Source: Euhalothece natronophila Z-M001 (GTDB lineage: Bacteria; Cyanobacteriota; Cyanobacteriia; Cyanobacteriales; Rubidibacteraceae). From it: a stretch of DNA of 64,000 bases. Below, piece by piece: positions 1-13,116 of this stretch; the first letter of the stretch is position 1; every line of letters starts with the position of its first letter. The DNA is taken from positions 558,001 through 622,000 of the forward strand of contig NZ_CP042326.1 in NCBI RefSeq assembly GCF_007904085.1. The letters run 5' to 3'. The notes beneath the pieces were generated by a model that saw nothing but the letters and a program-made list of their open reading frames with translations, had not been told where the DNA came from and did no database searches. Made by a program: the position numbers and the translations under genes.

Positions 1-235
1 TAGTTTCTGGTAAGTTTGCTAATAAAATAGCATCTCGACGTTGATTATCAAACCACTGTTCCAACTCATGGTCTTTCAGGGAAACCGCCACATCTAAACG
101 TTCAAAAACTGAGTTTTTTAGATGAGCTCTGGCTCGATTATAAGCAGTTACAGCAACTACTGAAAGTGTAATCAGAGAGAGAATATAAAAGGATCCTGCT
201 AATTGAAATAATAAACTTTTACGTAATAGTTTCAT
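1..235 (-). CDS. Sensor protein N-terminus (Cache-type), partial
   Basis: Seventy-eight codons are visible from an ATG at 235; the gene runs off the window start. The product begins with a short basic stretch (MKLLRKS), one membrane helix at about residues 9-30, and then a segment ending in HELEQWFDNQRRDAILLANLPE. That is the helix that opens periplasmic Cache sensor domains of cyanobacterial histidine kinases and cyclases. The neighbouring Cache protein (302-1327) has the matching phrase KEEQLESWFNQQQNT, so the two are related sensors. A kinase or other output domain is inferred and lies outside the window. It is the last visible gene of a co-oriented run and starts 66 bases after the previous stop. 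Confidence 0.65.
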   Translation of the reverse strand, partial: MKLLRKSLLFQLAGSFYILSLITLSVVAVTAYNRARAHLKNSVFERLDVAVSLKDHELEQWFDNQRRDAILLANLPET

Positions 236-301: not shown

Positions 302-1327
302 TTATAACTTATTTGTTTTTGCTTTCACTTTTGGCTTAAAGAGAAAAAGGATCATCGATAACAAAGCAGTGATGCTAAAACCTAATCCATAAATCCAAGC
401 TGCTAGCCGCCTAGCCGGTGCAAATATTTGGTATTGTTTCAACTCAGATAACAAAGCCAAATTGTATTCCGATATCCACCGATAATCACCGATAACTGGG
501 TTTCTATTGTAGTTTAAGTAGAGCTCTTGATTGCTATTTCTATGTAAAATTGCTTCATCAATCCCTGGACTACTAATTCCATCGCCCAGAGTATGTGATT
601 CAACAGAGTGAGCCACCAATTCATTTTTTTCAGGAGAAATTCGTCCAACGAGATAAACCTCTAAAGAGGGAGCTTCTTCTGAGGGAAGTTCTAGAGTATA
701 AGGTAATTCACGCATTTCCTGATTAAGAGCATCTAAATCAAGATCCACTGCTAAAAAACCAACCCGTTGATCTTCCTCATTATGAAGGGGAGTCGCAAAA
801 GTGATCATGGGCATAGCATCTCGGCGAGAAGCATAGAAATTAGGAACGACTTGATCGCGATTTTCAGGGGTAAGATAAGTGCTGGTATTTTGAATTGGTT
901 GATATGAGCCCTCTATAGACCCCTTAGTGGAATAAACGATAATGCTACTCTGATTTAAAAGGGAAACAGAATAGCTGTTTTCTAACAAGTCCACTTCTTC
1001 TAATAAAGCTTCAATAGTTGGAACTTCCTCAGGATTAATTCCCCCTGATTCCAAGATTTCAACAATTTGAGGAGATTCCCCCAAAACTTCACTTGCCTCT
1101 AGAACCGTATTCTGTTGCTGATTAAACCAGCTTTCTAACTGTTCTTCTTTAATCTCAGCAATAGTATTCAATTCGTTAAATACAGCAGGAACAATTTGGC
1201 TTCGCATGGACACATAAACTAAAAATGCGCTTAAACTAAAGGCTGTAATTGCTATAAGGGGAAGCCAATCAATTAACATTCCAATGCGGTTACTCCACGA
1301 AGAATTTAACTTTTGGTATGAACTCAT
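302..1327 (-). CDS. Membrane Cache-domain protein without output domain
   Basis: A protein of 341 residues: cytoplasmic N-terminus, a membrane helix at about residues 17-39, a large extracytoplasmic domain of roughly 260 residues with Cache-like features (KEEQLESWFNQQQNT, RRDAMPMITFATPLHN, VGFLAVDLDLDALNQ), a second membrane helix near the C-terminus, and a basic tail. No HAMP, kinase, cyclase or GGDEF domain follows, so it senses but has no output of its own. The reading frame is open further upstream, but the ATG at 1327 (MSSYQKLNSS) is preferred because it sits four bases after the stop of the solute-binding protein gene. This tight coupling suggests that the two products work together, for example as ligand receptor and membrane sensor. 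That role is inference. Confidence 0.75.
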   Translation of the reverse strand: MSSYQKLNSSWSNRIGMLIDWLPLIAITAFSLSAFLVYVSMRSQIVPAVFNELNTIAEIKEEQLESWFNQQQNTVLEASEVLGESPQIVEILESGGINPEEVPTIEALLEEVDLLENSYSVSLLNQSSIIVYSTKGSIEGSYQPIQNTSTYLTPENRDQVVPNFYASRRDAMPMITFATPLHNEEDQRVGFLAVDLDLDALNQEMRELPYTLELPSEEAPSLEVYLVGRISPEKNELVAHSVESHTLGDGISSPGIDEAILHRNSNQELYLNYNRNPVIGDYRWISEYNLALLSELKQYQIFAPARRLAAWIYGLGFSITALLSMILFLFKPKVKAKTNKL

Positions 1328-1331
1328 GGCT

Positions 1332-2723
1332 CTATTCCCATTCTTCAAAAATTTGCTCAATTTCTTCTCTTGCTTTCTCTGCTGAGTCACGGGGGCTTAC
1401 ATCTTCTTCCACCATTCGAGATAAGGCATTTCCCCACACCCCTCTTGCTTCTACTTCCGCATAAGCAGGGTTAAAAACTGTATAAGAGGGACGAGTGCGC
1501 TCAAAATACTGGTGAGTTTTATACACATGGGGATCCTCAGGATCATTCCAAAATGGACGTTCTAAAATTGTTTCCATCACAGGATAAAAGCGACCTTGAG
1601 AACCTTCATTAAATTCTGCTAGGTGTTCTGGTTGTATGAGATAGCTTACTAAATCTTGGGCTTTTTCCGTTTGAGGAGCTCCTTCTGGCAAAATCAACTG
1701 TTTAATTGAGGTGATATACTCCATGGGTTCACCATTTACTTTATTGGGCCATTCGATTGTTCCCATTTCCTCTTTATAAGTAGAGGGATTCTGTCGCTGA
1801 GAACCTGGAATTGATAAAGTAGGGTTGGGAGTCATTAAAGTCTCTCGACTCAGGAAAGAAATATTATTATCTGGGTCAGTCCAATTCGTTACATTACTGG
1901 GAATATAGTCATTTTCATAAAAATCCTTAATTTGAGATAAAATCTCTGTCAATTTCTCTAAGTCAGAATCGTTAAAGGTGAGTTCTCCATTTTCATCCAC
2001 GATCTGAATATCATAACCTTGTAAAATTTGTTCAATAGTGTAGTGAGTATCCGTGGCAGCAGTGGACATTGGTAATCCTAGAGCATATACCTCTTGCCCT
2101 TCTTCTCTTAAAGCGGATTGAACTTCCAACCAAAACTCCCAAAAACCTTCCCAATTTTCAGGAATGTCTTCCTCACTAAAACCAACTTCTTCCAATAAAC
2201 TACGCCAGTAATGTATATAAATCGTATTTTGGGCAATGGGGACAGCGTAAAAACTTCGTCGATCTTCCACATCATTGCGATAGTTGACGCTTTCCAAGGC
2301 TTCTGGCATGAATAAATCTTGGACAGGATCAATAATGTCACTGGTATCTACTAATTTTCCGTTCCAAGCGAAGGTGGGGACAAGAGAAAAATCAAGGGTA
2401 TAACCATAAATAATATCGGGTAAAGTTTCATCAGAATTCATCACACTTTCAGCTTTTTGTGTTAAATCCTTTTCACTATAAAATTGCACATCAACAGCAA
2501 CATTCGATTGTTCAGACCATTCATCAATAAATTTCCGAATAGCATTGGTTTCTTCGGGATAGTAACCTTCGCTCCACCAAACCTCAACATTTTCTCGCGC
2601 TGGCTCTTCTGGGCCAATAATAGGCTGATCACAGGCAATGATTGAACTAAGCATCACGAGAGCAAGCAAAATTCTAATAGTTGATCGAAACTGACTTCGG
2701 AACTTTCTCTTGAAAAAAAACAT
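1332..2723 (-). CDS. Extracellular solute-binding lipoprotein (family 1)
   Basis: A protein of 463 residues with a basic N-terminus, a hydrophobic segment and a lipobox (SSIIAC, lipidated Cys about residue 31), so it is probably anchored on the periplasmic side of the inner membrane. The body resembles ABC-type carbohydrate-binding proteins: an early VEVWWSEGYYPEETNAIRK strand-helix, DIIYGYTLDF, a central YDIQIVDENGELTF, and a C-terminal VEARGVWGNALSRMVEEDVS. No ABC permease or ATPase gene lies beside it. Instead it is followed four bases later by a Cache membrane protein and then by a sensor gene, and preceded by an AEC permease. It may therefore serve in ligand sensing rather than classical uptake. 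The family is fairly sure; the ligand is unknown. Confidence 0.85.
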   Translation of the reverse strand: MFFFKRKFRSQFRSTIRILLALVMLSSIIACDQPIIGPEEPARENVEVWWSEGYYPEETNAIRKFIDEWSEQSNVAVDVQFYSEKDLTQKAESVMNSDETLPDIIYGYTLDFSLVPTFAWNGKLVDTSDIIDPVQDLFMPEALESVNYRNDVEDRRSFYAVPIAQNTIYIHYWRSLLEEVGFSEEDIPENWEGFWEFWLEVQSALREEGQEVYALGLPMSTAATDTHYTIEQILQGYDIQIVDENGELTFNDSDLEKLTEILSQIKDFYENDYIPSNVTNWTDPDNNISFLSRETLMTPNPTLSIPGSQRQNPSTYKEEMGTIEWPNKVNGEPMEYITSIKQLILPEGAPQTEKAQDLVSYLIQPEHLAEFNEGSQGRFYPVMETILERPFWNDPEDPHVYKTHQYFERTRPSYTVFNPAYAEVEARGVWGNALSRMVEEDVSPRDSAEKAREEIEQIFEEWE

Positions 2724-2750: not shown

Positions 2751-3737
2751 CTACCAAGTTGAAAATCCCCATAGCCAGAGCGGTAAGGTGATGAGCAACA
2801 TTATTGAACTGAGAGCGACAGCTCCCACCACTACTTCACGATTTAATCCATAATTATCAGAAATAACAATTGTTGCAAAGGCACATGGCATTCCTGATTG
2901 TAAAACCATAACCAGTCGTGGCGGACCACTAAATCCTAGGGCAGTTAACCCCATCGCTACTATGATGGGAACTAATAACATCCGTACTGATACAGCCATT
3001 GCTGACGGTTTAATGTTGCGCCAAGAGGAAAGTTGCTGTAATCTAATCCCCATTAAAATTAAGGATAACATAACAACTGACCAAGCAAATCCATTGAGAC
3101 TGATAGCGAGTAAAGAAGGAAATGTAATTTGTCTTAAAAATAAACCAAGGATAAAAGCAAATACAGTGGGATTTTTAATGATAACTTGCAGTAATATAAA
3201 CCAAGGATTACTTTTTTTTCCTTCAACGGCATGACCAAAACGTAACGCAAGAAATACACCTAATCCATAAGCTCCTAACAAAGTTCCTAACAAATCATAA
3301 AATAACGCCCAACCAAAATATTCTGCCCCTAATTGGGGTAAAAGGAGAGTTACAGGAAATCCCATGTAACCTGTATTTCCAAACATTGAGCTTAATAAAA
3401 AACTTCCCTGAGTTGATGGCTCTATTTCCTTTAAGTATGGACGGAATCCTAACCAACTTAATCCCAAAGCTAGTAAAATAGCAACCCAAGCGATAACAGG
3501 AGCCATAAAAACATTCCCTGAAAGGTCTGCTTGATGTAAAAAGTTAATAATACTAATTGGAACACCAATCCAAAATAAAAATTGACCGAGTTTCTTGGGA
3601 ACTATCTCTTGAAGAGAAGCATTAAAGCGATTCTTAAATCGGCGATGGGTAAGAATAAAACTAATCCCAAATCCAACACTGATCGCGGAAAAAATTGGTA
3701 TATAAAGATTAGTAATAAGCTGTAAAATAGTTGACAT
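2751..3737 (-). CDS. AEC-family permease (auxin efflux carrier type)
   Basis: A protein of 328 residues, nearly all hydrophobic, with about ten membrane helices. The pattern is that of the AEC/membrane transport protein family: SSMFGNTGYMGFPVTLLL in the first half and VLQSGMPCAFATIVISDNYGLN in the second, the two halves being inverted repeats in this family. Members export or import carboxylates such as malate or lactate, or amino-acid-like anions. The gene begins 24 bases after a LarA-like racemase gene and is followed by the solute-binding protein 27 bases on. Transport of the hydroxy acid handled by the racemase is a reasonable inference, not shown by the sequence. Confidence 0.85.
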   Translation of the reverse strand: MSTILQLITNLYIPIFSAISVGFGISFILTHRRFKNRFNASLQEIVPKKLGQFLFWIGVPISIINFLHQADLSGNVFMAPVIAWVAILLALGLSWLGFRPYLKEIEPSTQGSFLLSSMFGNTGYMGFPVTLLLPQLGAEYFGWALFYDLLGTLLGAYGLGVFLALRFGHAVEGKKSNPWFILLQVIIKNPTVFAFILGLFLRQITFPSLLAISLNGFAWSVVMLSLILMGIRLQQLSSWRNIKPSAMAVSVRMLLVPIIVAMGLTALGFSGPPRLVMVLQSGMPCAFATIVISDNYGLNREVVVGAVALSSIMLLITLPLWLWGFSTW

Positions 3738-3761: not shown

Positions 3762-5684
3762 TTACTCCCTCTTAGGAATAAAATCAAGGTTTCTCCTAAG
3801 AATAACTGGTTTTTTCAAGTAAGCAATTTCTATCCCCTTAGCAGAAGACTCAAAGCTAGCACTGTAGTGATAAGCAATATCAAGAGCAATTTGAGGGGAA
3901 CAGGTATTGAGATCAATAGTTTGTATCCCTAACAGAGTAATTGATCTACTTTTAATATTAGACTGATTTTGTAGGGAGGGAGAAATATATTCCGTTAAAT
4001 CAGGGTTTAATTGATGTATATAAGAAATAACAACAGGATTAAATGTGGCAATAAAAAAATATTTAAAGTGTTGACAAATTTTTAATAGTCGCAGTGCGCG
4101 TTGTCCGCCTTCTCCTAAACCAAAATGTTCTTGATGAGCAAAAACTTGGGAATTAATTTGGTCAATAATTCCCCTAAAATCATGTCCTTGTTCGTATTGC
4201 TGGAGCAATTGGCTTATTGTTTTCATGGTGACATTGTATTTTCCAGCATATTTAAAGAGCATTTTGTGTAGCGATTGCTCTATTGTATAGTCAAAAACAC
4301 CTTTAGATCGGTGTGCTAAAACTTTCTTAGCTAATTTTTCTAGTTGTAACCAAATTTGATCCGCTTCACTTACAACTTGTAAATGGAGTTGCCATTGCTT
4401 GAGTAAATCATCTCTGGAAATTCGTAAAATTTTTTCAATTTCTTGCCAGCTTGTTGCTTTTAAAAGTTGACCCTTGATCAAATCACGATGTTCTTGGGTC
4501 ATTTCAAGGAGAATATCTAATTGTTCTTTTGTTCCATCATTGCCAATTCCAGAGTTATTGAGGGGTTCATTACAGGGGTTATATAAGAGGGCAACAGAGT
4601 TTTGGTTTGGTGGCTTAAGTAAAGGGGCTGATTTTTCGTTCCAATCACATATATACTGTAAGGCACGAGCTCCAGCGAGAATATCTGTTCCTCGCTTCGG
4701 TTCAATATCACTAATAACTAAATTGAAAGTGGTGTCAACTGAAAAAACATGGTTACGATAGTTATTCTGAGCTAGTTCTTGACGGTAATTTTCATGATCC
4801 CCAAAAGCCATATCCCAAATCTGATCTTCATCTTGGGCAAGAACGGTAAACCCATAGGGAACTGACATAGCTTGGCTTTCTGGGCGAGATATCATTGCTT
4901 GTTGGATTCCTTGAGCAGTGGTATCAATCATTTTGACAAACGGACTTGTGGGATCACCGGCTCGGGCTGTAGTTGCTAATAAAACGCTGGTACTATGACT
5001 ACGGCGAATTTCGTTGAGACTGGCAATGCCTACAGCAAGCATTTTGTTAATTCCACCACTGCCATAGCGACCTTCATAAGGATGGATTTTGGTGTCACCA
5101 GCAATTAAGGTTAGATGATGATTAAAGAGAAGTTGAGGAATTTTTACGCTATAGCGAGTGCTGTTCTTTTGTATTGAGTAAGGTGTCGTCTCTGACTTGT
5201 TTGCAATTTCCCGAGATGAGTGAGGATTAATGATGATTTCAACTAATTCATTCGTTTTGATTTTGGTAGTTTGCTGTTTAATTGCTATGCCAATTGCTTG
5301 CAGTTTTGAGTAGCGCTCTTTACCAATTAATTTTTCAATTTCTTTTAAGCTCATTAAGGGATGAGTTCCTAAACCATAAAGAAGAGTCACTTTTAGTTCA
5401 GGTTTATTATTAACAATATTTAAAATGGCATCAATTAAAATTCTGGCTGCAACTTGAGAACGAGTTTTATCAGGTAAAATTAATAAAATACTTTTGATAT
5501 TTTTTTTATGTTTTTTTTCTCCGATCGCGATCGCTGTGTGAATTTCCTTCTTACAATAAGAGACTAATTCATTTCTATCTAGGGTATCATAAGGAGCAGG
5601 TGAACGAGGAAAAAATACATTCGTTTGTGGCGGTACTTTAACGTTATATTCAGGATAACTTTGAAGTCTTATTGAATGACTCAT
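3762..5684 (-). CDS. LarA-like nickel-pincer racemase family protein
   Basis: A protein of 640 residues. The first 350 or so resemble LarA (lactate racemase, DUF2088 family), which uses a nickel-pincer nucleotide covalently held by a lysine. Family landmarks are visible: PDKTRSQ at 71-77 (D72 and R75, like the D-x-T-R loop), GLGTHPL with H108, and HPYEGRYGSGGINKMLAVG with K214. A histidine follows exactly 16 residues later (H230), the same spacing as the cofactor lysine and catalytic histidine of LarA. The loop before K214 is a little longer than usual, and the protein is about 200 residues longer than typical LarA, with an unassigned C-terminal half. No LarB, LarC or LarE cofactor genes lie in the window. 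It is probably co-transcribed with the AEC permease. The 2-hydroxy-acid substrate is unknown. Confidence 0.7.
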   Translation of the reverse strand: MSHSIRLQSYPEYNVKVPPQTNVFFPRSPAPYDTLDRNELVSYCKKEIHTAIAIGEKKHKKNIKSILLILPDKTRSQVAARILIDAILNIVNNKPELKVTLLYGLGTHPLMSLKEIEKLIGKERYSKLQAIGIAIKQQTTKIKTNELVEIIINPHSSREIANKSETTPYSIQKNSTRYSVKIPQLLFNHHLTLIAGDTKIHPYEGRYGSGGINKMLAVGIASLNEIRRSHSTSVLLATTARAGDPTSPFVKMIDTTAQGIQQAMISRPESQAMSVPYGFTVLAQDEDQIWDMAFGDHENYRQELAQNNYRNHVFSVDTTFNLVISDIEPKRGTDILAGARALQYICDWNEKSAPLLKPPNQNSVALLYNPCNEPLNNSGIGNDGTKEQLDILLEMTQEHRDLIKGQLLKATSWQEIEKILRISRDDLLKQWQLHLQVVSEADQIWLQLEKLAKKVLAHRSKGVFDYTIEQSLHKMLFKYAGKYNVTMKTISQLLQQYEQGHDFRGIIDQINSQVFAHQEHFGLGEGGQRALRLLKICQHFKYFFIATFNPVVISYIHQLNPDLTEYISPSLQNQSNIKSRSITLLGIQTIDLNTCSPQIALDIAYHYSASFESSAKGIEIAYLKKPVILRRNLDFIPKRE

Positions 5685-5702: not shown

Positions 5703-6797
5703 TCATACGTTTAGTTTTTTCAATATAGAATCAAAACGGCTACTATTTTGGTTAGGGGGATCAATTGCTTCTAAATCAAATTGATTTGAAGATAGTAATT
5801 GTGCAGTATTCCCTAAATCCTTTCCATAGCCTAAGCGACTAATTAAACGGGTCAAACGTATAGACAGTAAAGTTGTCAGGATTCGATAAAAGCGACTGCT
5901 CATCTCGATATTTTGTTCTAAATTAGCTAAGAGTTTTTGACGAGGAATTGCTAGCAATATGGAATCTTCCAAAGCAGTAACAGTTAATTTAGGGAGATAA
6001 GAATCCACTAAGGCAGTTTCACCCACTACTTCTCCGGGAGTTGCATATTCAACTTCCTTACTTGGAGGAGTTTCACTCTTTGATTCTGAGTTGCTTAACT
6101 TCTCAAATACTTCGTTTAAGGTATTAGCTTTTTTCTCAGTGATATTCAGGGAAAGTAATCCTTTAAGTACAAGGTAGAGGTTCTCAGTGGGTTGGTTAGC
6201 TGGTATAATTAATTGCCCTGCTTCGTAGCGTTGCACGTCCCCTTGAGTAACTATCCAGTCAATGTCATTGTCATACAGTTCATGAAAGAGGATTGTGCCA
6301 TCTTGGAAGGGAGAAATTTGCAATTTTTTACGATGATTGAGACACTTCTTTAAAAGAAACTCATAGCGATTGAGCAGTAAAAGCGCGATCGCGCGGTAAA
6401 AACGAACTGCAAAATTAGGATTATTCTTTAGATGATTTTTTAAGGATTCACAAGGAACTATCAAAACAATGGAATCAGTTTTTGCTTGAATGGTTACTGG
6501 TGAAGTACTTATCCAAAAGAGAGTTCCTTCCCCAATAATGTCACCCGACTGATAAGAAAAAAGTTCTTGTTCTGCATTAGTCTCACTAATGAGTGCAGAG
6601 TAAGCTCGTCCTAAGGTACTTTCTTCATTATCCTTAATCAGCGATTTCAGTTCACCTTCAAGAAGGATATATAGTTGATTTAAAGGTTCATTTTGCTCAA
6701 CTAAAGTATCCGTTGACGAAACTGTTATTTGTTCACCAACAGATACCAGCCAATCAATGTCATCTTCTGTTAATTGCTCTCGTAATATGTCTGGCAT
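5703..6797 (-). CDS. Double cyclic-nucleotide-binding-fold protein
   Basis: A protein of 364 residues with two CNB (cupin-like) domains, about 10-150 and 165-320. Each starts with DDIDWLV / NDIDWIV, runs through LYILLEGEL / LYLVLKGLL, and ends with a conserved RFYRAIALLLLNR / RFYRILTTLLSIR helix. The phosphate-binding cassettes are degenerate: GDIIGEGTLFWISTSPVTIQA and GEVVGETALVDSYLPKLTVTA keep G-E but lack the Arg that holds the cyclic phosphate. It may therefore not bind cAMP or cGMP in the usual way. The C-terminal 40 residues are polar and carry no DNA-binding helix, so it is not a Crp-type regulator. It lies between the ParA-like ATPase (61 bases upstream) and the LarA-like gene (18 bases downstream), all in one direction. 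Confidence 0.8.
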   Translation of the reverse strand: MPDILREQLTEDDIDWLVSVGEQITVSSTDTLVEQNEPLNQLYILLEGELKSLIKDNEESTLGRAYSALISETNAEQELFSYQSGDIIGEGTLFWISTSPVTIQAKTDSIVLIVPCESLKNHLKNNPNFAVRFYRAIALLLLNRYEFLLKKCLNHRKKLQISPFQDGTILFHELYDNDIDWIVTQGDVQRYEAGQLIIPANQPTENLYLVLKGLLSLNITEKKANTLNEVFEKLSNSESKSETPPSKEVEYATPGEVVGETALVDSYLPKLTVTALEDSILLAIPRQKLLANLEQNIEMSSRFYRILTTLLSIRLTRLISRLGYGKDLGNTAQLLSSNQFDLEAIDPPNQNSSRFDSILKKLNV

Positions 6798-6858
6798 TTT
6801 CTTTTATTGCCATCAAAAGTATTTATTTTGTAGCTCAAATAATGATCTAACTTTCTCA

Positions 6859-7617
6859 TCACATTTTTTGAGTAACACCATTAAACACTTGCGTTAAATG
6901 GTGATCAGGATACTGGACTGTAAATAAGCCTCCACTTGCCAAAATCATCATTTCATCTGAATGTGGCAAAACCCCTGCTACTTCTACATCATAAATTTCC
7001 TCAATTTTAGACTTTAGTTGCTCACTATCAAACGCAGTTGGCGCTTTATTGACTAATAGCAACATTTTTGGAATTTGCAGTTTACGAGAGACTTCTACAG
7101 TAACTGCTGTTCCTTGATAGTCCTGCCGATCCGGGCGTAAAATAAGAATTAAAATATCAGAAATAGTGATTGAAAGTAAAGTCTCTTCATTTAGCCCAGG
7201 ATGAGTATCTAAGAGCAAGTAGTCCAGTGTCAATTCCTCTGCTAAAGATTGTAATCCTTCGCTTAAATATTCAATATCATAGCCATTTCGCAAAACTTGG
7301 GCAATATCCTCAGTATTACTACTAGAAGGAATTAAAAAAAGCTTACCCTCTCCTTGATTAAAGCCATCTCCTAAAGTCGTAGTTACATCGTAAGCAACCT
7401 GTGAAATCGGGAGTTTCCCCCAAACATAATCATTGAGAGATGTAGTGACATCATCTTTCTCGAACCCAAATAGTACGTGAATACCGGGAGATTGAATATC
7501 TGTGTCAACCACTGCCACCCGATTTCCTTGTTTAGTAAGCATGGCTGCCAGATTGGCGGTTACATTAGATTTGCCAGTTCCACCACGGTAAGAATGAATT
7601 GATATAATTTGCGACAT
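6859..7617 (-). CDS. ParA/MinD-like ATPase with variant Walker A
   Basis: A protein of 252 residues in the SIMIBI MinD/ParA group. The P-loop is SYRGGTGKSN: the catalytic K16 is present, but the signature lysine of the deviant Walker A (K-G-G-x-x-K-S/T) is Arg at position 11. Further motifs are VVDTDIQSPGIHVLFG (A-prime strand), YLLLDTHPGLNEE (Walker B) and LLLVNKAP. There is no visible amphipathic C-terminal membrane-targeting helix as in MinD and no DNA-binding N-terminus as in plasmid ParA. An upstream TTG at 7641 is possible, but the ATG at 7617 fits the family start and has AAAGG about 11 bases before it. It is embedded between CNB proteins and a small membrane protein, suggesting a positioning or switch role in that module. 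Confidence 0.85.
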   Translation of the reverse strand: MSQIISIHSYRGGTGKSNVTANLAAMLTKQGNRVAVVDTDIQSPGIHVLFGFEKDDVTTSLNDYVWGKLPISQVAYDVTTTLGDGFNQGEGKLFLIPSSSNTEDIAQVLRNGYDIEYLSEGLQSLAEELTLDYLLLDTHPGLNEETLLSITISDILILILRPDRQDYQGTAVTVEVSRKLQIPKMLLLVNKAPTAFDSEQLKSKIEEIYDVEVAGVLPHSDEMMILASGGLFTVQYPDHHLTQVFNGVTQKM

Positions 7618-7740
7618 AAAATAGTAAACCTTTAATTTCAATCAATAAGCTGTGGATGAACCTTTTTATTTGCTAGTTAACTAGCCTCTTTTGATGAACT
7701 AATTTTGCTACTTTAAATAAGCTCCAAAATTTATTAAATA

Positions 7741-7950
7741 TTATCCGATTAATAATTGTTTCAGCTCATCGTACCAAGCAAAGACCATAATCGCAGCCAA
7801 CATGGTAAAGAGCATAACGAAACCAATATAGGTCATTTTTTTCTCATGACTATCAACAGCTTGCTCAAGCTGATCATAAAGTTGGTTCCGAAGTCGCAGA
7901 ATTTTTCTAGGATTCTTAGGCGTTTTTTTGGGAGGTTTTGGAGAATTCAT
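7741..7950 (-). CDS. Small membrane protein in CNB/ParA module
   Basis: A protein of 69 residues: a strongly basic, proline-rich N-terminus (PKPPKKTPKNPRK), a short amphipathic helix (LRNQLYDQLEQAVDSHEKK), then a single membrane helix (MTYIGFVMLFTMLAAIMVFAW) and a short tail. It begins 14 bases after the stop of the membrane-anchored CNB protein and is followed by about 120 noncoding bases before the ATPase start. I do not recognise a family. The position suggests a membrane partner of the CNB protein or an anchor for the ATPase. Confidence 0.7.
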   Translation of the reverse strand: MNSPKPPKKTPKNPRKILRLRNQLYDQLEQAVDSHEKKMTYIGFVMLFTMLAAIMVFAWYDELKQLLIG

Positions 7951-7964
7951 ACTTAATATTTCCT

Positions 7965-8516
7965 TTAGAATGTATGACTAACAAACTCAAGAATTTGGGA
8001 CTTAAAGAAAATAGAGCCACCTACTAAAACAGTAATTAGTAAAGCTCCGACAATGGGCAAAATTCCCACATGACTTTTCATGACTCCTTCTTCATGGTCA
8101 CGAATTGCTTGACGGATGGCTTGAGACATTTCCTCCTGAAAAGATTCTAGATCACGATTAATGTCCTTATTAGATTCTTCTTTTTCCGCATACATATTAC
8201 GAAGACGATCAAAAGCGCTACGGATTAAAATTAAACTTTTCTCAGGACTGTCATAGACCATGTCAAGAATTTCATCATTTGATAAAACTGACAAAGTTAC
8301 AGGTTCTAGAACCCTTACTGTAGCTGATCTCGGTTGAGAATCAATCACTCCCAGCTCACCAAATATTTCCCCACGACCAAGGGTGTTAAGTTGAACAGTT
8401 TGACCAAGATGCTCGCGAATGACCTCTACCTTTCCTTTACGGATGATGTACGCATAATTACTAGGATCTCCTTCTTGGAAGACAACATCACCGGCTTCAA
8501 AGGTTTTAGTTTCCAT
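7965..8516 (-). CDS. Membrane-anchored CNB-domain protein
   Basis: A protein of 183 residues. Residues 1-115 form one CNB domain with an intact phosphate-binding cassette: GEIFGELGVIDSQPRSATV has the G-E pair and the Arg that contacts the cyclic phosphate. There follows a charged helical linker of about 40 residues and a C-terminal membrane helix (VGILPIVGALLITVLVGG). It is therefore a tail-anchored nucleotide sensor facing the cytoplasm rather than a transcription factor, since no helix-turn-helix is present. It is the first gene of the minus-strand run, with a short divergent region (8517-8651) before the MFS gene. A tandem cyclase at 11554-13116 could supply its ligand; that is inference. 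Confidence 0.85.
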   Translation of the reverse strand: METKTFEAGDVVFQEGDPSNYAYIIRKGKVEVIREHLGQTVQLNTLGRGEIFGELGVIDSQPRSATVRVLEPVTLSVLSNDEILDMVYDSPEKSLILIRSAFDRLRNMYAEKEESNKDINRDLESFQEEMSQAIRQAIRDHEEGVMKSHVGILPIVGALLITVLVGGSIFFKSQILEFVSHTF

Positions 8517-8651: not shown

Positions 8652-9869
8652 ATGACAAAAAACTCTCCTCAAGAACCTAGGGTTTCCCCACTAGTATTTG
8701 TGATTCTTACCATTTTAATTGAAGTGATCGGAAGTGGCTTAGTCGCACCTTTAATTCCCTATATTGTTGATGAATTCAGCTCGGATGCGCTAACCGTGAG
8801 CCTACTGGCTTCAAGCTATGCTGGTGCTCAATTTCTTGCAGCTCCTATCTTAGGAACTATATCTGATCGAGTGGGTCGTCGTCCCGTTTTGCTAGTTTGT
8901 ACTTTCAATACGGCTCTTGCTTTCTTTATATTTGGCTTGGCTCAAGCGTTGTGGATCATGTTTCTGGCTCAAATTATCAATGGTCTTACTGCAGGGGTCG
9001 TGACGACTGCCCAAGGTTATCTTGCAGATATTTCTAACTCAAAGGAAGAGCGCACTAAAAGCTTTGGATTAATTGGGGCGGCTGCAGGAATTGGATTTAT
9101 CTTAGGACCAGCTTTGGGAGCTACCCTAGCAGGAGTTAATTTACGCTTACCAGTGCTGGTAGCAGGAAGCCTTGCCCTCGCTAACTTTGTTATGGGATAT
9201 TTTACTCTCAAGGAATCTTTAAAAGAACCTATTAAAACTCCCCTAACAGTTAGATCCTTTTCCACGTTTGCTCAACTTCGAGATTTAATGGAACGTTCTC
9301 ATCTCCGCTATCTCTTTTCAGGATATTTTCTATTTTATTTAGGTTTTGCTGGACTTACGAGTATCTTCGTGGTTTTTGTGCGAGATGAGTTTTCTTGGGG
9401 ACCAGCTGAAGCTGCGGGGGTTTTAGTTTGGGTGGGAGTGATCACCACTTTAGTACAAGGCGGTTTAATTGGTAAACTAGTACTTCGCTTTAGCAATGAT
9501 CGTCTGGTGATAGTGGGCTTAACCGGCATCGTCATCGCTCTGATTGGCATCTGCTTTATCCCCCGAGGAATTTATTTGTATGGAACACAAACCCTTTTTG
9601 CTTTCAGTGTTGGGCTAGCTTCTCCTACCTTACGAGGGACAATAGCTAATGGAGTTCCTGATAGTGAACAAGGTAAAGTCAGTGGCGGGTCTCAATCTAT
9701 AGTTAGTCTTGCCCAAATTATTGGACCCATTGTAGCTGGGGGAGCTTACGATTACTTAAATAGTAATTTCTCTTTTGGCTTGCAAGCATTTTTAGTGGGC
9801 TTGGCTTTGGTGTGCTTCTTAAAAAGCCTTAGCTCTCGTCCCTCCTCTTCAACTCCTATTGTGAAATAA
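8652..9869 (+). CDS. MFS transporter, TetA-like
   Basis: A protein of 405 residues with twelve predicted membrane helices. The loop 2-3 signature GTISDRVGRRPVLLVC is the classical MFS motif A, and NGLTAGVVTTAQGYLADIS is the drug-antiporter-like helix 4-5 region; a shortened second motif occurs after helix 8. Probably a proton-driven exporter of unknown small molecules. It starts divergently from the CNB gene, and its last 14 bases overlap the convergent VOC gene. Confidence 0.9.
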   Translation: MTKNSPQEPRVSPLVFVILTILIEVIGSGLVAPLIPYIVDEFSSDALTVSLLASSYAGAQFLAAPILGTISDRVGRRPVLLVCTFNTALAFFIFGLAQALWIMFLAQIINGLTAGVVTTAQGYLADISNSKEERTKSFGLIGAAAGIGFILGPALGATLAGVNLRLPVLVAGSLALANFVMGYFTLKESLKEPIKTPLTVRSFSTFAQLRDLMERSHLRYLFSGYFLFYLGFAGLTSIFVVFVRDEFSWGPAEAAGVLVWVGVITTLVQGGLIGKLVLRFSNDRLVIVGLTGIVIALIGICFIPRGIYLYGTQTLFAFSVGLASPTLRGTIANGVPDSEQGKVSGGSQSIVSLAQIIGPIVAGGAYDYLNSNFSFGLQAFLVGLALVCFLKSLSSRPSSSTPIVK

Positions 9870-10269
9870 ATACGTCTTCTGGATTATAGGCAATTAATTC
9901 AATAACATGACCATCAGGATCTTTGATAAAGATTGATCGACAGAAAGGCCCATAGTCAAAAAGCTCTGGAGCCAGCCCTTTGCCTTCTAACATTTCCTTA
10001 ATTAGTTCATATTGCTCGGGAGTTATTTTAAAGGCAAAATGACGCATGGCGATGGTATCGTGATTGGGCGTTTTGCCCGGTTTATCTGTATCAGCCGGAA
10101 ACAGATTGAGATAAGTTTGTCCTGCTCGTAATAGGAAAGGGGGGCCTTCTAAACCGTGCATAAAACATTGTTCCATCCCTAAAACTTCTTGATACCAAAT
10201 TACTGATTTTTGGGGATCGGAAACAGTTAAGGCTATATGGTCAATGTGCTTGATATCAGTTTCATTCAT
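9856..10269 (-). CDS. VOC-family (glyoxalase-like) protein
   Basis: A protein of 137 residues with two beta-alpha-beta-beta-beta units of the vicinal oxygen chelate fold: IDHIALTVSDPQKSVIWYQEVLGM at the start and RSIFIKDPDGHVIELIAY at the end. Metal ligands are consistent with H11 near the N-terminus, H72 in MRHFAFKI and E near the end. The wording (VLGM, FLLRAGQTYLNLFPAD) resembles virulence-protein/dioxygenase-like VOC members rather than glyoxalase I. The substrate is unknown. The 3' end overlaps the MFS gene tail by 14 bases. Confidence 0.85.
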   Translation of the reverse strand: MNETDIKHIDHIALTVSDPQKSVIWYQEVLGMEQCFMHGLEGPPFLLRAGQTYLNLFPADTDKPGKTPNHDTIAMRHFAFKITPEQYELIKEMLEGKGLAPELFDYGPFCRSIFIKDPDGHVIELIAYNPEDVFISQ

Positions 10270-10361: not shown

Positions 10362-11450
10362 TCAAGTATTTTTAGATAATGTTGCATCGTATTCCTGTAA
10401 AAATCCATTTTTCCCTTTTTTTCGCAGTAACTTACGTAGTTCAATTGTAACCACATCAGTGTCATGGAGTAAATCTTTGGGTTGCTCAAGAGAGGGGCAA
10501 TGAGGTTCAATTGATTCAATTATATGCTGGTCTTCTTGCAAGAACTTTATCACCCGATTACGGGCATTGTTATCAGCAAGAGGGGTCTTGAGAAATGATC
10601 GGAAATGTTTCCAAATATTACGTGTCCGTTGTCCAGATATTGGAACACTAACTAACAATAGATAAATCTGGAAATCGCTAAAGACAACTCGAATAAAAAC
10701 TATATTAGGTAACCATAACTCTACATACTGTGCCCCTTCAGATTCACTAACTTCGTTAGCTTCTACAGCTGCAACTTCTTCAGGTTGATTTTTCTTCTTT
10801 TTATTGAAGGGTAATAATTGATTGATGCTCCAACGTTGAGTTTTACGATATTCGCGATCGCGAGGAGTCAAAATTGTTTGAGAGAGACAATAAGGGGTGA
10901 TAGATTTTTTAGTGGGTAAAACTCTTGCATCCGAACTATTGCCAAAGCTACCAGAATGAACAAAGGGAACATGAGTTAGATCAGTAAAACCTTCAAGTGC
11001 GCGAATCCAATGGGCTTCCCAAATTGCTTCTCCTTCCAAAACCCTCCAAGTTGAATCATCACTATTAGGAACTAAGTTTAAGTCTGGAAGTGGTTCAGGC
11101 TCACTATTTCCCCACCACAAAAAAATTAACCCCCGTTGTTCTTTACAATCAAAAGTTTGAACACAGGCTTTTTTGGGAATAGCTTGTTCTGGAAGGGCTG
11201 CTGGGATAGTTACACATTTCCCTTGCTTATCATAAATCCAGCCATGATAGGGACATTGCAATTGATCGCCAAGAACTTTCCCTTTTGAGAGAGCGGCCCC
11301 TTTGTGAGGGCAACGATCCACGATGGCATGAGGAAATCCTTTCTGGTCTCTCCATAAGCAAATTTTAGACTCAAACAGCTCAATGCTGATTGGTTTTTGC
11401 TTTAAATTAGAACTCAGTTCTACGGCATACCAAGTATCGGTTAGTTGCAT
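10362..11450 (-). CDS. Rieske non-heme iron oxygenase (PaO/CAO type)
   Basis: A protein of 362 residues. The N-terminal Rieske [2Fe-2S] site is clear: CPHKGAALSKG (C-x-H) and CPYHGW (C-x-x-H), separated by the usual 16-17 residues. The catalytic domain has the mononuclear iron motif ALEGFTDLTHVPFVH (D, H, H). Architecture and wording match the cyanobacterial/plant group that includes pheophorbide a oxygenase, Tic55 and chlorophyllide oxygenase. An electron donor is needed but not encoded nearby. The substrate is probably a tetrapyrrole or an aromatic ring. A stretch around residues 210-235 is rich in Glu/Lys and looks like a flexible insertion. Confidence 0.85.
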   Translation of the reverse strand: MQLTDTWYAVELSSNLKQKPISIELFESKICLWRDQKGFPHAIVDRCPHKGAALSKGKVLGDQLQCPYHGWIYDKQGKCVTIPAALPEQAIPKKACVQTFDCKEQRGLIFLWWGNSEPEPLPDLNLVPNSDDSTWRVLEGEAIWEAHWIRALEGFTDLTHVPFVHSGSFGNSSDARVLPTKKSITPYCLSQTILTPRDREYRKTQRWSINQLLPFNKKKKNQPEEVAAVEANEVSESEGAQYVELWLPNIVFIRVVFSDFQIYLLLVSVPISGQRTRNIWKHFRSFLKTPLADNNARNRVIKFLQEDQHIIESIEPHCPSLEQPKDLLHDTDVVTIELRKLLRKKGKNGFLQEYDATLSKNT

Positions 11451-11553: not shown

Positions 11554-13116
11554 TTATTTAGAAATAATTTCAAAAATAGGTGTTAAATTTTTGCTACCTT
11601 TTAGCCTTAACTTCTGAACTAGCTGATAGTGAAAAGGTAAATCATCAAGATTAAGTAAATTTTGCTCAAGCTCAATTCGTTCCACCATCGAATTAGTGAT
11701 CCAAATTTGATTTTTAGGGGCTTGACTCATCACGTAGGCAGCTCGATTAACTGGTGCTCCTAAGGCATTATAATCTCTGCGATGATAGGGCTGACCAATT
11801 TCTCCTGCAAATACAGTTCCCCAAGCTAATCCAATTTGGCAGCTAACTGGAATTTTTTGCTGACCAACTTCCACTTCTGGAAATTGAGAAATAAGTTGCC
11901 TAATTTGGGTAGCAACGGTAGTAGCCCGAATAGCATCATCAGTTCGAGAGTTGGGAACACCAAAATAAGCGAGTATGTCTGAGTAACGATGGTAAGTCCA
12001 GTTTTGTAAAAAACCTTCTTTGGCTTCTATCAGAGCGTTAATTTGAGCAAACAGGTAGGAGAGGGCGTGAATCAGTTGTTCTTGTTCAGTGGTGGCTTTG
12101 ACTGAATCGATACGCTCTGGTATTCCTATTAAGTTGATAAATAAGACAGCAGTTTGGGAGAGGGTAGGGGGAATAGCGCGATCGCGAGCATTTTCTACTA
12201 GTAATTTTAAGACAGGAGGGGCAATATATTTGGAGAGAGGAGCAGTTTGCTTAAGCAAATGATTAATTTCGCGCATCATCTCTTCTGAGCTATTATTGAA
12301 TAGCATACTACGGGGAAAACGTCGTCGCTGTGGCGTAATTTCAAATCGTCCCAAGCTCTCGCTCGTCATATCATCTTCTATTAAAAAGTAGCCTTCTTGA
12401 TGGGGAGTTAATCGGAAGCTATCCTGAACCCACTTAGCAGTTTCCTCGCTAATGCAAACCCTTCCTACTTTTCCAAAACTTTCTGTATTTTTGGCACAAC
12501 GTACAGTTTGACCTAATAAAATCCGCATCATTCGCATGGGAGTGCCAACATCAGCAGTTAAGAATTGACCGCTATGAATCCCAATTCGCATCCCTAAGCT
12601 CTGACTTTCTCCGAAGGTTTCCAGTTGATTAAACTCTGTCATCATTCGTTGCAACCTAAGTCCCGCTCGGACGGCTTTAGCGGTTGCTTGTTCAGGAGTA
12701 GCACCATCAAATTTAACTAAAGTTGCATCTCCTGTAAATTCCAGTAAATCCCCTTCTGAGGCACTAATAATTTCAATGGTACGAGAAAAATAAGTATTAA
12801 TTAACTTCGCAAGATAACGAGACCCCACAGCTCCCTGCTGGCTACAAGTTTGTGTTAGAGCCGTAAATCCAGCTAAGTCAGTAAACATTAGGGTTCCACT
12901 ATTCCATTGCCAGAGAGGTTGCTCAGTTTCTAATAAGTGCTCACTAACGCTGAAAGGAAGATAGTAAAACAGCAAATATCGTAATGTTCGTAGATGCTTG
13001 ATCACTTCTAACAACGTTGATTCTGTTGGTTGAATCCAAAGTTTTGCTTGAAGCGTCGCAGGTAACTGAATTCTTAGTTGGTCTTTTTTGGAAGCTAAGG
13101 AATCAGGAAGCAACAT
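11554..13116 (-). CDS. Tandem class III adenylate/guanylate cyclase
   Basis: A protein of 520 residues with two class III cyclase homology domains in one chain. Domain 1 (about 72-250) has both metal aspartates, FTDLAGFT (D80) and EFTGDATLVKF (D130). Domain 2 (about 325-510) has lost the first Asp (VLFINLIGIP) but keeps the nucleotide-side signature RRDYNALGAPVNRAA, with the adenine-type Asp and the transition-state Asn. The two domains thus complement each other, as in mammalian soluble adenylyl cyclase, giving one active site per chain. No membrane helix or sensor domain is visible. It probably makes cAMP, a possible ligand for the CNB protein at 7965-8516. The chain starts 38 bases upstream of the ftsH terminator hairpin on the same strand. 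Confidence 0.85.
   Translation of the reverse strand: MLLPDSLASKKDQLRIQLPATLQAKLWIQPTESTLLEVIKHLRTLRYLLFYYLPFSVSEHLLETEQPLWQWNSGTLMFTDLAGFTALTQTCSQQGAVGSRYLAKLINTYFSRTIEIISASEGDLLEFTGDATLVKFDGATPEQATAKAVRAGLRLQRMMTEFNQLETFGESQSLGMRIGIHSGQFLTADVGTPMRMMRILLGQTVRCAKNTESFGKVGRVCISEETAKWVQDSFRLTPHQEGYFLIEDDMTSESLGRFEITPQRRRFPRSMLFNNSSEEMMREINHLLKQTAPLSKYIAPPVLKLLVENARDRAIPPTLSQTAVLFINLIGIPERIDSVKATTEQEQLIHALSYLFAQINALIEAKEGFLQNWTYHRYSDILAYFGVPNSRTDDAIRATTVATQIRQLISQFPEVEVGQQKIPVSCQIGLAWGTVFAGEIGQPYHRRDYNALGAPVNRAAYVMSQAPKNQIWITNSMVERIELEQNLLNLDDLPFHYQLVQKLRLKGSKNLTPIFEIISK

Follow-up and report, generated by a model that had tools for sequence, protein, structure and literature searches.

A conserved receptor tail and a MinD-like ATPase in a nine-gene operon of Euhalothece natronophila: a candidate receptor-to-ATPase relay

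A window of 64,000 nucleotides from the 3.52-Mb genome of the cyanobacterium Euhalothece natronophila Z-M001 (genome G000, contig C1, positions 558001-622000) contains four co-oriented genes for a cyclic-nucleotide-binding (CNB) protein with a C-terminal membrane anchor (CNB1), a small membrane protein (SMP), a MinD/ParA-like ATPase and a double-CNB protein (CNB2). An initial annotation, made from the sequence alone, had drawn a module around these four open reading frames (ORFs), all of which are present. Its boundaries have to be redrawn: the four genes appear to open an operon of nine, and the sequence most strongly associated with the ATPase, a receptor tail, is encoded beyond the module's edge. 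Our working interpretation, tentative and at slightly less than even confidence, is that this operon may serve a receptor-to-ATPase relay. For the family as a whole, we see an even chance that it represents an undescribed class of signal transduction, in which diverse sensors (dCache-HAMP, CHASE2, PAS, GAF, REC, CNB) would share a tail of about 45 residues acting on a dedicated MinD-like ATPase with an arginine-bearing P-loop; the class would be found in about 40% of the sampled cyanobacteria and in Chloroflexota, with cyclic-nucleotide-sensing membrane adaptors as optional additions and the window operon as one variant.

Co-distribution of the receptor tail with the ATPase family

The tail is a C-terminal segment of the type LxIEIDxxKKxxQVxEITETDxFxxLQxKAxxLR, carried by sensors that are often encoded beside homologues of the ATPase, and no Pfam model matches it. 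The input domains that precede it, as assigned by Pfam, are CHASE2, CNB, bare HAMP, REC, HAMP-GAF, PAS, dCache-HAMP and Nif11-dCache-HAMP. At most 14 residues follow the tail in 31 of 56 proteins; about 100-138 follow it in the CHASE2 type, an extension with weak repeats of the second half of the tail. The only tail protein of E. natronophila is the dCache-HAMP receptor that closes the operon (424 residues in full; the N-terminal part lies at 1..235 on the minus strand, and the gene runs to 1039 bp left of the window). Its C-terminal tail is KQEITELRIEIDQQKKEEEVKEIVETDFFQDLENKAQSLRKR, and the single ATPase of the family in this genome is encoded in the same operon. The signaling helix (S-helix, PMC1592074) likewise has about 40 residues and often follows HAMP or other sensors, but the tail lies at the C-terminus rather than between sensor and output, is followed by no Pfam output domain and shows no ERT signature; we rejected that assignment.

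Among 390 cyanobacterial genomes, the ATPase is found in 162 and the tail in 159; both occur together in 153 genomes, the ATPase alone in nine, the tail alone in six and neither in 222 (Fisher p 2e-88, genomes being counted without phylogenetic correction). In a 60-genome set, 19 genomes carry both, one carries the ATPase only (G048, whose ATPase is divergent, with 46% identity) and none the tail only, and five genera of this set include species with both ATPase and tail as well as species from which both are absent. Apart from these within-genus contrasts the genome statistics are uncorrected for phylogeny, and the thresholds were set manually. Of 28 tail matches, 16 have an ATPase gene within 10 kb. 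The ATPase family also extends to Chloroflexota, where it is known from individual loci. We found no description of the ATPase-receptor combination in the openly licensed literature. In each of two operons of the congeneric genome G001 (L156:7076-8880 and L157:6252-8224), a glutaminase-type gene accompanies the genes for an ATPase and a tail protein, which suggests amino-acid sensing; for L156 the glutaminase family PF04960 was confirmed. At another locus (L148:11563-13296), inside a peptide-export cluster, a receptor consists of an N-terminal Nif11 domain followed by dCache, HAMP and the tail, that is, a precursor-like leader fused to a sensor.

The ATPase (6859..7617, minus strand) matches AAA_31 with 65 bits and CbiA with 60.2 bits, both over the Pfam gathering scores, which identifies a ParA/MinD P-loop fold. 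Its ORF extends to a TTG at 7641; translation probably starts at the ATG at 7617 (MSQIISIHS), since the relatives begin at MSKIISIHS. The family alignment, whose 46 members span Cyanobacteria, Chloroflexota and a few other groups and have a mean column identity of 59%, contains the conserved blocks RGGTGKS, DTDIQSPG and DTHPGLNEETLLS, and the window protein, with its RGGTGKS P-loop, preserves the invariant residues. Instead of the signature lysine of the deviant Walker A motif (KGGxxK[S/T]), at least 90% of the 46 homologues have arginine, the catalytic lysine being kept. An AlphaFold2 monomer model reached a mean predicted local distance difference test score (pLDDT) of 91.3, and its top Foldseek matches are MinD (E 7e-15), FleN and FlhG, with McdA also listed. 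With MinD, FlhG, FleN and ParA the family shares the fold, the position of the P-loop and the conserved Walker B and switch aspartates; it differs from them in the arginine, in scores far under the MinD cut-offs (51.7 vs 212.9 bits for TIGR01968 and 85.1 vs 201.75 bits for TIGR01969) and in having sensor tails and CNB proteins as partners. The signature lysine is also missing from the ParA-type ATPases BcsQ (RGGVGTT), which acts in cellulose secretion, and McdA (SGGQGKT), which positions carboxysomes (PMC9178275); ParA-type function is retained in McdA (PMC6328274). The window ATPase has this trait in common with both but falls under the BcsQ cut-off of NCBIfam (TIGR03371, 41.7 vs 157.85 bits) and has other partners. 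Winged-helix-like proteins often adjoin the ATPase; at three loci (L019:1084-2190, L074:4088-5233 and L084:4159-5304) the ATPase is a fusion with such a domain, which elsewhere is encoded by a separate neighbouring gene. Directly downstream of one Chloroflexota ATPase, a 1278-residue protein (L031:6879-10715) combines TLC nucleotide-transporter-like, HEAT and CNB domains.

A fold closest to MinD, FleN and FlhG, with McdA among the structural matches, together with the fact that McdA (PMC6328274) and BcsQ (PMC9178275) function without the signature lysine, would suit a positioning device like the ParA/MinD cargo systems, a view close to that of the initial annotation. The ATPase would then form patterns on the membrane or nucleoid, with the CNB proteins or receptor tails acting as its cargo adaptors, so that receptors or exporters are placed in the cell. 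We regard this as unlikely. No sequence feature indicates patterning, no clear membrane-targeting helix was demonstrated, and the varied input domains of the tail proteins (REC, PAS, GAF, CNB, CHASE2) resemble signal input more than cargo.

Linkage of the CNB proteins to the ATPase

On the minus strand, the four genes are arranged head to tail in the order CNB1, SMP, ATPase and CNB2, separated by 14 bp, 99 bp (123 bp from the ATG of the ATPase) and 61 bp, respectively. Every pairwise gene link is found again in unrelated genomes, so that the adjacency is not a product of chance, and the functional linkage put forward by the initial annotation is borne out by the recurrence of the ATPase-CNB1(-SMP) and ATPase-CNB2 pairings across cyanobacteria. 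The idea of a constant four-gene set is not: the relatives G031 and G066 carry ATPase, CNB1 and CNB2 on separate contigs, and the complete combination was seen in no other genome examined. The further claim that no member has an enzymatic output domain is correct for CNB1, SMP and CNB2 and fails for the ATPase, which is itself an enzyme.

CNB2 (5703..6797, minus strand, 364 residues) matches PF00027 with 90.3 bits, over the Pfam gathering score, and TIGR03896 with 205 bits against a cut-off of 161.05. The latter family (cyc_nuc_ocin) is associated with bacteriocin-type transport, a point missed by the initial annotation, which knew of no described function for this gene combination; two-CAP_ED proteins were reported in group V bacteriocin clusters by Wang et al. 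(PMC3140520). Searched at E<=1e-48, CNB2 is present in 36 of the 390 genomes, 34 of which have the ATPase, and 21 of 29 CNB2 genes checked lie within 6 kb of it. Among 60 relatives, seven genomes hold intact full-length CNB2 relatives, all with an ATPase within about 4 kb; five of these seven loci comprise the ATPase, DUF7005, CNB2 and NHLP HlyD, in most cases alongside a pair of ABC exporters and small Nif11-like ORFs. The loci L010 and L014 have the same ATPase-DUF7005-CNB2-HlyD order, and profile searches confirmed DUF7005 and HlyD (TIGR03794) in L010 and both double-CNB proteins. The window locus shares with such clusters a CNB2 above the family cut-off and the same ATPase family, but it has no NHLP exporter, DUF7005 gene or precursor peptide, and CNB1 and SMP are added. 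The phosphate-binding arginine is absent from both CNB domains of CNB2 and of its homologues (11 aligned, where the domain is complete), which makes ordinary cyclic-nucleotide binding by CNB2 unlikely. A phmmer search found no solved relative of CNB2, and its AlphaFold2 model (3 sequences; mean pLDDT 49) was not used. An encapsulin 2B reading was likewise rejected, because nothing beyond the CNB domain was matched (31.3 and 33.9 bits against a cut-off of 400).

These clusters raise the possibility that the locus is an orphan remnant, whose ATPase and CNB2 once served an NHLP/Nif11 peptide exporter since lost by the lineage, the remainder being neighbourhood noise. The closest relatives of both proteins do occur in ATPase-DUF7005-CNB2-HlyD-ABC clusters, no HlyD in this genome exceeds the TIGR03794 cut-off (best 95.7 vs 156.2 bits), and an NHLP export cluster of the congener G001 (L143, C1:226000-244000) has a frameshifted double-CNB gene and no nearby ATPase. 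Yet the four genes are intact, the invariant ATPase residues are kept, and CNB1, SMP and the tail receptor have joined; loss of an exporter would account for the origin of CNB2 rather than for its present role, and we judge this explanation somewhat less probable still than positioning.

In the ATPase tree, the window protein groups with those of G001 and of L010, L011 and L014, which are of the CNB2/NHLP type (98/97), and the other CNB1-linked ATPases form a separate clade (100/100). Given these two separate positions, the proximity of ATPase and CNB1 arose at least twice. The operon is thus a composite, with a CNB2-type ATPase joined to a CNB1/SMP pair.

CNB1 (7965..8516, minus strand, 183 residues) has one CNB domain (PF00027, 84.0 bits, over the gathering score) with an intact cassette, FGELGVIDSQPRSATV, and its closest solved chains are cGMP- and cAMP-dependent kinases and CRP-type proteins. 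The glutamate and arginine of the phosphate-binding cassette (FGE...PRSATV) are kept and are conserved in an alignment of 19 homologues. The proposal of the initial annotation that the system is nucleotide-controlled thus fits CNB1 but probably not CNB2. Orthologues of CNB1 (E<=1.4e-23) occur in 31 of the 390 genomes, and all 31 have the ATPase (p 2e-13); the two genes are divergent within 200 bp in many loci and 6-7 kb apart in others. Hydropathy places one membrane segment at the C-terminus of CNB1 and one in SMP (7741..7950, minus strand, 69 residues, single-pass); the membrane location proposed by the initial annotation is supported. SMP matches no Pfam family; in eight other loci, an SMP homologue is found no more than 150 bp from CNB1. 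In both proteins the pattern R..[LM]...[IL]..A[VI]..HE.[KR][MV] precedes the membrane segment in the alignment, and SMP therefore looks like the juxtamembrane helix and anchor of CNB1 without the CNB domain.

About 3 kb upstream, a class III nucleotide cyclase with two cyclase domains (11554..13116, minus strand; PF00211, 102.4 bits in two stretches) could be a source of the CNB1 ligand. Cyclase relatives (40-46% identical) directly abut the ATPase in about seven distinct loci, and a cyclase homologue lies within 6 kb of it in 13 of 106 ATPase loci. Because PF00211 matches reach 30-40 in some genomes, we dropped proximity as a statistical argument and take only direct abutment as suggestive. 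A cyclase and a CNB-membrane protein in one neighbourhood resemble the cyclase and receptor of Pycsar anti-phage defence, where the cyclase product would trigger CNB1 as a membrane effector, and there are matches of PycC models to the cyclase (77.6 bits) and of PycTIR models to the CNB domain in CNB1 (36 bits). However, the domains matched are generic ones of cyclases and CNB proteins, CNB1 matched no PycTM model, there was no match to a specific Pycsar effector, and CNB1 is constantly associated with the ATPase (31/31), with receptors and with stable metabolic and export neighbours (Rieske, VOC, MFS, DevBCA) rather than with defence islands, which makes a defence role very improbable. Coincidental adjacency of unrelated regulatory genes, to which the 15 CNB-domain matches of this genome lend some plausibility since one near any given gene is not rare, is contradicted by the co-distribution statistics and by the fact that each pair turns up again in independent genomes; it is the least credible explanation of all.

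The nine-gene operon and the proposed relay

Five further minus-strand genes follow CNB2; the first three gaps measure 18, 24 and 27 bp, the next pair of genes overlaps, and the last gap is 66 bp. From spacing and orientation we infer that all nine genes form one operon. The first encodes a 640-residue protein (3762..5684) in which only an N-terminal lactate-racemase (LarA) domain was matched (PF09861, 35.3 bits), the C-terminal part being without a family. It is followed by an auxin-efflux-carrier-type membrane transporter (2751..3737; PF03547, 56.9 bits), an extracellular solute-binding protein that is probably a lipoprotein (1332..2723; PF13416, 79.6 bits), a dCache-like membrane protein without HAMP or tail (302..1390; PF02743, 26.0 bits, under the gathering score of 45) and the tail receptor. 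Left of the window lies a DNA phosphorothioation cassette with SspC-like, DndC and DndD/PbeC genes (L220:2871-11952), whose last gene and the receptor gene end about 10 bp apart. Upstream of the operon lie genes for an MFS transporter (8652-9869, plus strand), a glyoxalase/VOC protein (9856-10269, minus strand) and a Rieske oxygenase (10362-11450, minus strand); the tail-to-tail MFS/VOC overlap followed by the Rieske gene is syntenic with the picocyanobacterial loci L204 and L206, which also hold ATPase, CNB1 and SMP.

The content and order of the genes, their families, the co-distribution of tail and ATPase and the linkage of CNB1 and CNB2 to the ATPase are well supported; tail docking, ligand, signalling direction and output are putative. 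In the proposed relay, the dCache-HAMP receptor would sense a small external ligand, and its tail would dock on the MinD-like ATPase, thereby controlling, at the membrane, the ATP-dependent state of the ATPase in dimerization or hydrolysis. A membrane-anchored pair may form from CNB1 and SMP through their common juxtamembrane and anchor segment, with CNB1 contributing a cyclic-nucleotide input. CNB2, for its part, would serve as an adaptor with a CNB fold. In relatives it would link this ATPase to a peptide exporter; in the window operon it may persist from that arrangement or have been put to new use with the transporter and racemase-like genes. As its presumed output, the relay would pass from the ATPase to CNB1/SMP and CNB2 at the membrane and control a nearby transport or metabolic function. 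Partner genes in other loci encode NHLP exporters, DevBCA-like exporters, glutaminase, or an Asp/Glu racemase with a dicarboxylate symporter, and the window operon encodes the LarA-like protein and the auxin-type carrier; on the basis of these partners, our guess is that the receptor ligand is a small carboxylate or amino acid.

Several observations weigh against a receptor-to-ATPase relay. Of the 390 genomes, 15 are discordant, six having only the tail and nine only the ATPase, and in E. natronophila itself 7.7 kb separate the receptor tail from the ATPase. Because neighbours of the ATPase supplied the training set for the tail model, proximity in those loci follows by construction, which does not apply to the co-distribution. 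CNB1 and CNB2 are each missing from most ATPase genomes, and we therefore treat both as optional; the similarity of SMP is weak (BLAST E 1e-4 to 1e-8). Promoter and terminator scans yielded no more sites than shuffled sequence.

Implications for sensors without a recognized output

Bacterial sensors are usually classed by their output, be it a kinase, a cyclase, a chemotaxis signalling domain or a transcription factor, and those that close in a bare tail are commonly taken to lack an output. Should the tail itself be the output, with the MinD-like ATPase as its receiver, many unexplained sensors of cyanobacteria and Chloroflexota would gain a testable partner, and an ATPase family best known for positioning would acquire a role in sensing. 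The tail-ATPase pair is small enough for this to be tested directly.

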